Positions 17,940-22,280 of a stretch of 64,000 nt of DNA are shown piece by piece (positions within the stretch are counted from its first letter, which is position 1; every line of letters begins with the position of its first letter). The position numbers and the translations under genes are program-made. The notes under the pieces are model-generated. The model had not been told where the DNA came from and made no database searches. It saw only the letters and a program-made list of their open reading frames with translations. Location of the stretch: assembly GCF_000271485.2 (NCBI RefSeq), contig NZ_AKVN02000001.1:624001-688000 (forward strand), given 5' to 3'. The stretch is from Pelosinus fermentans DSM 17108 (GTDB taxonomy: Bacteria > Bacillota > Negativicutes > DSM-13327).

Positions 17940-17968
17940 TTGACTTTCATAAGGTGATAAAATATAAT
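17940..17968 (+). promoter_or_regulatory. Strong promoter of the serine T-box operon
   Basis: TTGACT (17940-17945) and TATAAT (17963-17968) are separated by exactly 17 bases. Transcription should start near 17975, giving a leader of about 300 bases that contains the T-box. Confidence 0.88.
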
Positions 17969-17974
17969 ATGTTT

Positions 17975-18202
17975 AAATTGATACATGAACATGAGGAAAG
18001 GGAAATTAAGTGTACAGAATGTACAGAGAGCCGGCGGGTGGTGTAAGTCGGTCATTTTGACAGTTGATTCCGCCCTGGAGTGGCTAATGATGAATTATGA
18101 CGGGTGTCGCCCGGTATAGCGATAAGAGTTGGCTATATATGTAGCAATTTGGGTGGCAACGCGGGAATATCTCTCGTCCCTGGTGGGATGAGGGGTTTTT
18201 TT
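17975..18202 (+). ncRNA. Serine T-box leader (tRNA-sensing riboswitch)
   Basis: The leader carries the conserved T-box core TTTGGGTGGCAACGCGGG (18148-18165) and a terminator: stem CTCTCGTCCC (18171-18180) with GGGATGAGGGG (18185-18195), then seven T. Stem I features are visible as the AGAGAGCCGG block near 18023-18035. In the specifier region GATTCCGCCCTGGAG, TCC (18069-18071), a serine codon, lies where the specifier triplet is expected. Uncharged tRNA-Ser should stabilise the antiterminator and switch on serA-DUF1015-serC. The T-box call is direct from the motif. The UCC specifier is read by eye. Confidence 0.93.
18170..18202 (+). terminator. T-box regulated terminator
   Basis: The stem from 18171-18180 with 18185-18195 (one G-U pair each at two positions) and the T-run 18196-18202 form the off-state terminator that competes with the T-box antiterminator. 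Confidence 0.88.
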
Positions 18203-18282
18203 ATATCTTTTTTTAAGATAACGTGTTTATTTATATTGAAAATGTATAACAGTAGGATGATAATTGTATGGAGGGAATGTAA

Positions 18283-19869
18283 ATGAGAATATTAGTAAGT
18301 GATCCGGTTTCAGCACAAGGGGTAGAGCTATTACAAAAAGAATATGAGGTAGATGTTAAGATAAAACTACCCATTGAGGAGTTAATAAAAATTATTCCTC
18401 AGTATGATGCTTTAGTAGTACGCAGCGAGACGAAAGTAACTAGAGCGGTTATTGAAGCAGCGGTTAATTTAAAAGTAATTGGCCGTGCTGGAGTAGGCGT
18501 TGATAATATTGATGTAGAGGCAGCTACCCAAAAAGGCATAATTGTACTCAATGCACCAGAAGGAAATACGATTGCAGCAACAGAACATACGATGGCAATG
18601 ATGCTGGCGCTGGCCCGGAATGTTCCCCAAGCTCATGCCAGCTTGAAAAATGGACAGTGGCTGCGCAGCAAGCTGATGGGTGTGGAAATGCGCGGTAAAA
18701 CATTAGGAATTCTAGGACTGGGGCGTATTGGTTCAGGTGTGGCAAAACGAGCTTTAGCGATGGAAATGAACGTTGTAGCTTATGATCCTTTTATTAACGC
18801 AGAGCAGGCCTCAGCTATGGGAATTCAACTGCTGGAACTAGATGAAATTTTCCCGTTGGCTGATTTCATTACGTTGCATTTGCCTTTTACCTCTGAAACG
18901 AAATATCTGTTAAATAAAGAGCGTTTTGCTAAAATGAAGCCCAGTGTACGGATTATAAACTGTGCACGAGGCGGCGTCATTCATGAAGGGGATTTGGCAG
19001 AGGCTGTTGAACAAGGTATTGTAGCAGGTGCAGCAATTGATGTATTCGAAAAAGAACCCGTCAATCCGGACAATCCGCTATTAAAGCTGGATCAGGTAAT
19101 CGTGACACCTCATTTAGGAGCTTCTACAGCAGAAGCGCAAGTTGGTGTGGCGGTGGATGTGGCAAAAGGTATTATTGCAGCGCTGAAGGGGGAACCTATC
19201 GCTACGGCAGTAAATATGGCACCGATTCAGTCGCATGTGTTAGAGGTTATTCGTCCGTATTTTAACTTGGCAGAAAAAATGGGTTGTTTGGCCATTAATT
19301 TGGCCGAAGGACGTATAACAGCAGTTGATGTAGAATATAATGGGGAAATTAGTGAAGTCGATACAAAAATGCTGACCACAGCCATGATTAAAGGTTTGCT
19401 AAATTCCATTTTGACAGAGCATATTAATTATGTGAATGCTCCAGGGGTTGCAAAATCCCGCGGTATTAAAATACGCGAAGTAAAAAGTAAAGAAACGGCT
19501 AACTTTGCTAATTTGATTACTGTGCGAGTGCATACGGATAAAAAGACCCATGTTGTAGCCGGAACTTTGTTTGGACATGAAGAAGGCCGTATCGTAATGA
19601 TTGATGGATACCGGGTGGATGTTGAGCCTCAGGGCTGGCTGATTGTGGGACTTCACTTGGATCGTCCGGGAATGATCGGCTATGTTGGTACTATTTTAGG
19701 TACTGATGGGATTAATATTAACAGTATGCAGGTTGGCCGTACAGAGGTTACGGGAACCAATATTATGGTGATGAGTGTAGATTCTGACGTACCAGCAGCG
19801 ACTATGCTTAAAATAAAAGCTGTGGATGGAATCTTGGGAGCAAAAATGATTAACTTTTGTGTAATTTAG
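18283..19869 (+). CDS. serA: D-3-phosphoglycerate dehydrogenase
   Basis: 528 residues, the long SerA type: substrate and NAD domains ([43 protein letters not shown]), an intervening domain, and a C-terminal ACT domain ([21 protein letters not shown]). It oxidises 3-phosphoglycerate to 3-phosphohydroxypyruvate, the first step of serine synthesis, and is usually feedback-inhibited through the ACT region. The ATG follows GGAGG at good spacing. The gene is the first of the operon behind the serine T-box. Confidence 0.97.
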
Positions 19870-19880
19870 GAGGAAAAAGT

Positions 19881-21134
19881 ATGGCTAGTGTAAAACCTTT
19901 CCGCGGTCTTAGACCGGCACCCGAATTGGCAGATAAAGTTGTTTCTCTGCCCTATGATGTAATGGACTCTGCTGAGGCAAGAGCCATTACATCCCAAAAT
20001 GAATTGAGTTTTTTGCGCGTTACGAAATCGGAGGTGGACCTTGCTCCAGATGTGAATCCCTATTCAGAAGAGGTATATCAAAAAGCCAATGAAAATCTTC
20101 AGGAGTTTATAAAAAAAGGAATTTTAATCCAGGATGAGAAACCTTGTTTTTATATTTATAAGCAGCAGATGGGAAGCCATACCCAGGTAGGATTAGTGGC
20201 AACGGTATCTGTTGTTGAATATAACAATAATATTATAAAGAAGCATGAATTGACCAGACCGGATAAAGAACAGGATCGAGTCAATAATATTACAGCTACA
20301 GGGGCGCAGACGGGAGCTGTATTTATAACTTATAAAGCAAATGATCATATGAATGCTGTTATAGCCCAGGGAATGACAAAACAGCCGGTATATGATTTTG
20401 TCACCGAAGATGGAAACAGCCACACGCTGTACATTGTGGATGACGCTGTTAAAATAGAGGCAATTGAACAGGCTTTTGCCCGTGTTGAGTCCTTATATAT
20501 TGCTGATGGACATCATCGTTCTGCTGCTGCTGCCAGGGTTTATGAAACCTGCAAGGCAAATAATCCTGAGCATACTGGTGAAGAAGCATATACCAGGTTT
20601 CTGGCAGTCATTATCCCTCATACAATGACAAAGATTATGGATTATAATCGAGTTGTAAAAGATTTAAATGGATTAACTGAAGAAGCCTTTCTCGAAAAAA
20701 TCCAAAATAAATTTACTATTGAACCGTGTACTCGAATCTCATGCAAAGCGGAATATCCCCATTATTTTGGCATGTATCTGAATAAAGCATGGTATAAATT
20801 AGTGGCGAAACCAGACAGTTATGACGAGACAGATCCCGTAGGAAAGCTGGATGTTAGTATCCTCCAGAGCAATCTGCTAGAGCCTGTCTTGGGTATCGGC
20901 AATCTTCGTACAGATAAACGCATTGATTTCGTCGGAGGCATTCGCGGCATGGGAGAATTAGAGCGTTTAGTAGATAGCGGTGAATATGTTGTTGCTTTCT
21001 CCATGTTCCCGACATCGACTAAGGATTTAATGGCAATTGCTGATGCTGGCCAAATTATGCCGCCTAAGTCAACTTGGTTTGAGCCGAAACTTAGGGATGC
21101 GATCGCAGTACATTTGATAAATGGAGGAAACTAA
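19881..21134 (+). CDS. DUF1015 family protein in the serine operon
   Basis: 417 residues. The start MASVKPFRGLRP and the block ADGHHRSAAAARVYE (208 onward) identify DUF1015, a cytosolic family with no function I can state with certainty. The GHHRS motif (Gly210-Ser214) resembles the phosphate-binding GxHR turn of ParB/sulfiredoxin-fold nucleotide enzymes, a group that includes the archaeal serine kinase SerK. An in-frame TTG at 19857 is ignored, because TAGGAGG lies eight bases before ATG 19881. It begins 12 bases after serA and ends two bases before serC. No phosphoserine phosphatase (serB) is seen in the window. A role in serine or phosphoserine metabolism is inferred from the neighbours only. 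Confidence 0.9.
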   Translation: MASVKPFRGLRPAPELADKVVSLPYDVMDSAEARAITSQNELSFLRVTKSEVDLAPDVNPYSEEVYQKANENLQEFIKKGILIQDEKPCFYIYKQQMGSHTQVGLVATVSVVEYNNNIIKKHELTRPDKEQDRVNNITATGAQTGAVFITYKANDHMNAVIAQGMTKQPVYDFVTEDGNSHTLYIVDDAVKIEAIEQAFARVESLYIADGHHRSAAAARVYETCKANNPEHTGEEAYTRFLAVIIPHTMTKIMDYNRVVKDLNGLTEEAFLEKIQNKFTIEPCTRISCKAEYPHYFGMYLNKAWYKLVAKPDSYDETDPVGKLDVSILQSNLLEPVLGIGNLRTDKRIDFVGGIRGMGELERLVDSGEYVVAFSMFPTSTKDLMAIADAGQIMPPKSTWFEPKLRDAIAVHLINGGN

Positions 21135-21136
21135 AG

Positions 21137-22225
21137 ATGGCACAGCGTGTTTTTAATTTTAATGCAGGTCCGGCAATACTGCCTTTAGAGGTGCTGGAAG
21201 AAGTACAAGGTGAATTACTCAACTATCACGAAACGGGCATGTCCATTTTAGAAATGAGCCATCGTTCGAAAGCATATGAAGGGATTAACCGTCAAGCCGA
21301 GGCCAATCTGAAAGAGTTGTTGGGCTTAGGTGATAACTATAGAGTACTATTTCTGCAAGGAGGAGCAAGTACCCAATTTGCGATGATACCAATGAATTTC
21401 CTGCCCCCGGGACGGACAGCAGACTATATATTGACAGGTTCCTGGTCAGAGAAGGCTTATAAGGAAGCCAAATTATTTGGAAATACCCATGTAGCTGCAA
21501 CAACTGCTGAGGGCAACTACAAGCGTACTCCTAATTTGGATGAAATTCAGTTAAGCGATAATCCTGCCTATGTACATATCACTTCAAATAATACGATTTT
21601 TGGTACCCAATGGAAAACCCTGCCTTCCTTTGGTGAAGTACCATTGTTTGCCGATATGTCATCGGATATTTTGTATAAGCCTTTTGATGCAGAAAAATTT
21701 TCTTTAATTTATGCCGGAGCACAAAAGAACTTAGGTCCATCCGGAGTTACCGTTGTTATTGCCCGCAAAGAGCTATTAGAGAATAATCCGAAAGATATTC
21801 CTACGATGCTGCGATACGAAACCCATGCTAAGAATGATTCCCTTTATAATACGCCACCGGCTTTTTCTGTGTATGTACTAAACTTAGTGCTGCAGTGGAT
21901 TAAGAAGCAGGGCGGATTAGTGGGAATGCAAAAGCGTAATGAAGAAAAAGCTGCTTTGATTTATCATACGATTGACAACAGCAATGGTTTTTATATAGGG
22001 CATGCGCAAAAGGACAGTCGTTCTTTAATGAATATTACCTTCCGTTTGCCGAGTGAAGAGCTGGAGAAGACCTTTGCCAGTGAAGCTGAGAAGGCTGGTC
22101 TTGTCGGTCTTAAAGGGCATCGTTCTGTAGGCGGTTTACGGGCTTCCACGTATAATGCCATGACGGTAGAAGGCTGCCGGGGACTACAACAATTTATGCT
22201 GCATTTTCAGCAGAAAAACGGGTAA
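21137..22225 (+). CDS. serC: Phosphoserine aminotransferase
   Basis: 362 residues, standard SerC length. It converts 3-phosphohydroxypyruvate and glutamate to phosphoserine and 2-oxoglutarate using PLP. The N-terminus FNFNAGPAILPLEVLE and the PLP lysine segment YAGAQKNLGPSG (Lys197) are diagnostic. It begins two bases after the DUF1015 stop with GGAGG upstream, so it is the last gene of the T-box operon. A hairpin terminator follows. Confidence 0.97.
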   Translation: MAQRVFNFNAGPAILPLEVLEEVQGELLNYHETGMSILEMSHRSKAYEGINRQAEANLKELLGLGDNYRVLFLQGGASTQFAMIPMNFLPPGRTADYILTGSWSEKAYKEAKLFGNTHVAATTAEGNYKRTPNLDEIQLSDNPAYVHITSNNTIFGTQWKTLPSFGEVPLFADMSSDILYKPFDAEKFSLIYAGAQKNLGPSGVTVVIARKELLENNPKDIPTMLRYETHAKNDSLYNTPPAFSVYVLNLVLQWIKKQGGLVGMQKRNEEKAALIYHTIDNSNGFYIGHAQKDSRSLMNITFRLPSEELEKTFASEAEKAGLVGLKGHRSVGGLRASTYNAMTVEGCRGLQQFMLHFQQKNG

Positions 22226-22245
22226 ACTACAGGAAGAAAAGTTAG

Positions 22246-22280
22246 AAAGCGGGAGTACAGGTTGACTGTATCCCGCTTTT
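22246..22280 (+). terminator. Terminator of the serine operon
   Basis: AAGCGGGAGTACAG (22247-22260) pairs with CTGTATCCCGCTTT (22266-22279), with one G-T wobble and a short loop, followed by a T-rich tail. Confidence 0.85.

Follow-up and report, generated by a model that had tools for sequence, protein, structure and literature searches.

The window analyzed here is a 64,000-nucleotide stretch (bases 624001–688000) of a large contig from the complete 5.03-Mb genome of Pelosinus fermentans DSM 17108. It contains, on the + strand, a serine synthesis operon in the order promoter, serine T-box, serA, DUF1015, serC (Table 1). DUF1015 is separated from serA by 11 bases, rather than the 12 counted in an earlier sequence-only reading of this DNA, and from serC by 2 bases, as that reading had it. 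All three genes score well over the cut-offs of their families. The single promoter and single serine T-box it described are both evident, as a strong promoter-like site and a leader with specifier UCC. At 92.3 bits, this leader falls 0.7 bit below the Rfam gathering score of 93 for RF00230 and is therefore missed at the default threshold, but its E value of 7e-21 makes it a clear match. The UCC (Ser) specifier plus purine is identical in six leaders preceding serA operons in Pelosinus, Lutispora, and Clostridium, and UCC has been published as the predicted specifier of clostridial serine T-boxes, which turn genes on during serine starvation (PMC8002221). Serine T-boxes also lie upstream of aminotransferase-serA-DUF1015 operons in Clostridium and Lutispora. 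One such operon, in Clostridium luticellarii, is preceded by two full tandem serine T-box leaders (L075:5415-5875), and one in Lutispora by the 3′ part of a second T-box (L031:5464-5778).

Table 1. Features of the serA-DUF1015-serC operon, in coordinates of the window
Feature	Position	Strand	Evidence or remark
Putative sigma-70-like promoter, TTGACT-17-TATAAT	17940..17968	+	11/12 consensus match
Serine T-box leader, specifier UCC	17985..18184	+	RF00230 92.3 bits, E 6.9e-21
Putative intrinsic terminator, overlaps T-box antiterminator	18169..18196	+	12-bp stem and T tail
serA, phosphoglycerate dehydrogenase with ACT domain	18283..19869	+	TIGR01327 679 bits; ACT PF01842
DUF1015 class I protein, SerK-like predicted fold, proposed phosphoserine-to-serine enzyme	19881..21134	+	PF06245 377 bits; AF2 pLDDT 95.2; SerK/SbnI fold
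H122-E123 codons, proposed equivalent of SerK H29-E30 (catalytic Glu)	20244..20249	+	Equivalence inferred from position
DGHHR phosphate/nucleotide loop, residues 209-213	20505..20519	+	Aligned with SerK D69-R73
MPPKSTWFEPK, residues 393-403 (K396, T398)	21057..21089	+	No variation within class I; K396 aligns with SerK K221
serC, phosphoserine aminotransferase	21137..22225	+	TIGR01364 508 bits

The sequence-only reading noted that serB is missing from the window, and this extends to the whole genome, in which no gene exceeds the TIGR00338 cut-off for canonical SerB (144 bits). The top match, at 38 bits, is a 288-codon open frame annotated as a Cof-type HAD-IIB hydrolase. It is canonical SerB that is absent; the genome does encode other possible phosphatases, several of them HAD proteins and three of them histidine phosphatases, and no candidate phosphatase of the genome reaches any curated phosphoserine-phosphatase cut-off. 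In the same genome, a histidine phosphatase resembling PspA and CobC (L093, G000:C1:3608463-3609044) is another candidate for a phosphoserine phosphatase.

The DUF1015 protein covers the full PF06245 profile (1–325) at 376.9 bits, against a curated cut-off of 25.8. This is the sole Pfam family found in our profile searches, which returned no match to TIGR00338 or to HAD families. The closest named relative found is that of Pelosinus propionicus (95% identical). With 417 residues and an N-terminal extension, the protein exceeds the compact ∼240-residue size of two free serine kinases, the archaeal ADP-dependent SerK (TK0378, PF0380; PDB 5x0b, 1vk1) and the staphylococcal SbnI (PDB 5uje, 6nr6). 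Among 239 DUF1015 relatives, E123 is present in all 239, H122 and the DGHHR motif each in 238, and K396 and T398 (KxT) in all 237 that have letters at those positions. The GHHRS turn occupies residues 210–214, where it had been placed before.

An AlphaFold2 model of the protein, built on an alignment of 81 relatives, has a pLDDT of 95 and a pTM of 0.92. Foldseek against the PDB returned nine chains with E <0.001, every one of them SerK or SbnI (E 6e-8 to 5e-6), with the tenth chain at E 0.1. In VIA-align superpositions, SerK and SbnI reach Z scores of 11–13 over 213–227 residues (best Z 13.1, rmsd 5.5 over 226 residues; SbnI Z 11–12), compared with 5.2 for sulfiredoxin and less than 5 for Noc and ParB (Z 3–5). 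A model of a class II DUF1015 protein (see below) gives the same top list of fold matches, with Z up to 14.5. The first fold search had no HAD or histidine-phosphatase structure among its matches, which is by itself no evidence.

When a profile built from the 239 DUF1015 sequences is compared with SerK by hhalign, the alignment covers almost all of SerK at an E value of 2.5e-7, a pairwise value without database-search correction. The register places DGHHR on the DGHHR of SerK and PPKST on its SPKTT (SerK sequences confirmed against the PDB). The H122-E123 pair, not recovered by this alignment, lies in the model between the first long strand and the next helix, as does H29-E30 in SerK. Sequence searches of the PDB with DUF1015, as a single sequence or as a class I profile, gave nothing useful, and the link to SerK came only from the fold search and the wider profile. 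The earlier suggestion that the GHHRS turn points to a ParB/SerK fold thus fits the model, whose only strong PDB fold matches are SerK and SbnI, and a SerK-type ParB/sulfiredoxin fold for DUF1015 is supported. The predicted resemblance to SerK extends over residues 88–415 and includes the DGHHR loop, a C-terminal PK[ST]T motif, and possibly the HE motif. Unlike SerK (242 amino acids), DUF1015 has ∼88 extra N-terminal residues and insertions, and the two are only ∼14% identical.

Comparison of 158 further DUF1015 genes divides the family into sequence classes, each of which needs only two changes on the tree. The two main ones are class I, which holds the window protein and is marked by [KR]HETKER...FVGGIRG...MPPKSTWFEPK, and class II, marked by PHETPKR...MPQKSTxFYPK; class III has few members and resembles class I. 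All classes retain the HE, DGHHR, and K-T residues. In 118 evenly drawn Bacteroidota genomes, all 105 DUF1015 genes were examined, with “beside” defined as within 1.5 kb. Class I genes (48 genomes) adjoin serA/serC in 44 cases, and none of the 48 genomes has SerB. The 41 class II genes never adjoin serA/serC, and 33 of their genomes have SerB. Class III is found in 12 genomes; SerB is missing from all four in which the gene adjoins serA and serC, and in the three SerB-positive genomes the gene lies away from them. The remaining four genes were left unclassed. SerB is present in 0/48 class I genomes against 38/70 of the other Bacteroidota (p 8e-12; these and the following co-occurrence counts and p values ignore kinship). 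Avoidance of SerB by the whole family was rejected in Bacteroidota, since both occur in 36 of the 105 (p 0.22); the exclusion holds for class I only, which made it necessary to divide the family. Echinicola and Pedobacter, two Bacteroidota for which genetic data exist and which stand outside our class assignment, have no gap at SerB in GapMind.

Across many phyla, serA/serC are close by in 30 of 80 near relatives, and SerB over cut-off is found in none of the 30 genomes of class I loci. Class II genes are beside serA/serC in 0/78 cases, often with SerB in the same genome. In Desulfobacterota, SerB occurs in 2/136 genomes with DUF1015 against 7/22 without it (p 1.2e-5), and the two that have both carry class II; the class I genes of this phylum are beside serA/serC in 0/9 cases. 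Among 149 sampled Bacillota genomes, none has a TIGR00338 match over cut-off and about half lack DUF1015 as well; DUF1015 associates with serC_1 in this sample (31/44 versus 44/105, p 0.002). Gammaproteobacteria, tried as a high-SerB background, failed in this role, as only 30/114 species-level genomes exceed the TIGR00338 cut-off. This low count may mean that the missing-SerB question extends beyond Firmicutes, or that TIGR00338 is too strict.

Because TIGR00338 SerB is itself uncommon (30/114 Gammaproteobacteria, 0/149 Bacillota), its absence alone is weak evidence. The absence moreover follows clades and so is backed by few independent events: the gene tree shows only some eight changes of SerB status, and a pair test on it is underpowered.

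Considered together, the predicted fold, the operon, the T-box, and the distribution agree on phosphoserine/serine chemistry within serine synthesis. Since class I combines a SerK-like shape and residues with occurrence where SerB is absent, it probably performs the last step of the pathway. Our best explanation, which we consider probable, is that the class I proteins, that of the window among them, stand in for SerB as SerK-fold enzymes that turn phosphoserine into serine. Somewhat less firmly, we propose that the free-serine-kinase fold has in class I a widespread branch among bacteria whose members act as dephosphorylating enzymes, unrelated to the HAD and histidine phosphatases and possibly using a phosphate acceptor instead of water, and that this branch completes serine synthesis in many SerB-less bacteria. 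The earlier proposal of a phosphoserine-handling enzyme now has good support from the fold, the operon, the T-box, and the phyletic pattern, with catalysis as a prediction. The outcome it had named as speaking against itself included a normal serB together with an unrelated fold; the genome has no normal serB, and the predicted fold is a related one.

In the proposed mechanism, SerA would produce phosphohydroxypyruvate and SerC phosphoserine, which DUF1015 would bind in a SerK-like pocket. The DGHHR loop together with K396/T398 would bind the phosphate group, while E123, which we propose to match SerK E30, would act as acid/base on the serine oxygen. Either water or an acceptor molecule would receive the phosphate. 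The operon would be switched on via the T-box by uncharged tRNA-Ser (UCC). The operon, the T-box, the predicted fold, the conserved residues, and the lack of canonical SerB are observed; substrate, direction, and phosphate acceptor are what we infer, with direction as the main uncertainty, and sequence cannot tell water from an acceptor. The synthesis direction is favored for the window, Clostridium, and Lutispora because a serine T-box raises expression when serine is scarce. On textbook energies, phosphate transfer from phosphoserine to ADP looks uphill, and hydrolysis or a low-energy acceptor is therefore preferred. Against this explanation, the characterized fold relatives are kinases that act in the opposite direction. 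Further points against it are the clade-bound absence of SerB, the rarity of TIGR00338 SerB in general, the other candidate phosphatases of the genome, the nine Desulfobacterota class I genes away from serA/serC, the sampled Bacillota with neither SerB over cut-off nor DUF1015, the failure of the profile alignment to pair E123 with E30, and the GapMind entries for Echinicola and Pedobacter.

The same relatives, and the active-site motifs that DUF1015 conserves, suggest an alternative in which DUF1015 is a free serine kinase like SerK and SbnI, converting serine to phosphoserine. SerB would have been lost since the pair would waste ATP, and SerC and SerA would run backward to 3-phosphoglycerate, or phosphoserine would feed cysteine synthesis. 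In Desulfurococcales, serK also lies near genes for 3-phosphoglycerate dehydrogenase and an aminotransferase, and SerK of T. kodakarensis works in serine assimilation (PMC5120207). This placement of archaeal serK near serA-like genes, in a serine-assimilating context, is why the kinase with loss of SerB to a futile cycle has to be taken seriously, although we regard it as unlikely. The operon is controlled by a serine T-box and is on when serine is short, its SerA carries an ACT domain, which is typical of biosynthetic phosphoglycerate dehydrogenases, and a kinase would leave these genomes without a recognized enzyme from phosphoserine to serine. Unlike SerK, DUF1015 is widespread in bacteria, lies in T-box-controlled synthesis operons, and is present where SerB is missing, and unlike SbnI, which serves siderophore synthesis, it would belong to central serine synthesis.

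The proposed reaction and pathway position of class I are those of the HAD-type SerB (TIGR00338), from which it differs in lacking a HAD match, in its fold, and in never occurring together with SerB in the sampled genomes. Non-orthologous replacement of SerB has precedents in the PspA-type histidine phosphatases and YsaA-type HAD proteins, whose folds are unrelated to DUF1015. It is conceivable, if rather improbable, that another phosphatase of this genome, either PspA-like (L093/L094) or MtnX-like HAD-IB (L090/L092), takes the SerB step and leaves DUF1015 some other serine-linked role. In favor of this, L093 scores 176 bits to PspA NF045917, L090 and L092 exceed the MtnX-like subfamily cut-off, and other organisms are reported to replace SerB with PF00300 SerB2 or YsaA (PMC9026213). 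The score of L093, however, is far below the PspA cut-off of 350, and L093 matches CobC at least as well. None of these phosphatases is encoded in the ser operon, in contrast to class I DUF1015, which adjoins the ser genes in most Bacteroidota class I genomes. The likelihoods that we attach to these alternatives partly overlap. The regulator offered as an option by the sequence-only reading finds little support: a non-catalytic regulator or chaperone of serine enzymes would be in keeping with the ParB-type fold of nucleotide-switch regulators (PMC12704722) and with the PDB description of SbnI as a bifunctional regulator/O-phosphoserine synthase, but is highly improbable given active-site motifs essentially invariant across phyla and top fold matches that are enzymes, not ParB or Noc.

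In the openly readable literature examined, DUF1015 is named in two papers on matters other than its function and is assigned none, and an assignment may already exist in subscription papers and supplements, which lie outside it. In 2007, glycine riboswitches of Firmicutes metagenomes were observed to control COG4198 (the same family, COG4198/DUF1015; PMC2211319), an earlier hint toward glycine/serine metabolism that differs from the window operon in its RNA control and came without a function. “DU1015” is one of the architectures that a survey of the ParB-CTPase fold from 2025 picked for nucleotide-binding tests, and the main text of that survey gives no result for it (PMC12704722). The missing step itself is well recorded: among 2856 human-gut genomes, 450, in Firmicutes, combine SerA and SerC with the lack of a known SerB (PMC9026213), SerB is also missing in C. 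perfringens (PMC7311316) and is listed as an open gap in PMC5764234, and the SerB gap is likewise recorded for D. vulgaris. For this last step of serine synthesis, which has no assignable enzyme in many bacteria, class I DUF1015 offers one testable candidate whose fold, operon, regulation, and occurrence across several phyla all fit. If the proposal is true, a kinase fold has been recruited for the opposite reaction, and predictions of serine auxotrophy would be corrected for genomes with class I DUF1015.

Class II was set aside because its neighbors are not serine genes. In Bacteroidales (loci L096-L215, e.g., L096:5276-6559), it often adjoins scpA-, tsaE-, and tsaB-like genes, as judged by eye, and an obvious guess for its role would be that of a free serine kinase. 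In three SerB-positive Bacteroidota (G246, G281, and G262; loci L098, L100, and L135), the FVGGIRG and WFEPK motifs of the class III protein have drifted and the gene lies away from the ser genes, as if freed from a serine role.
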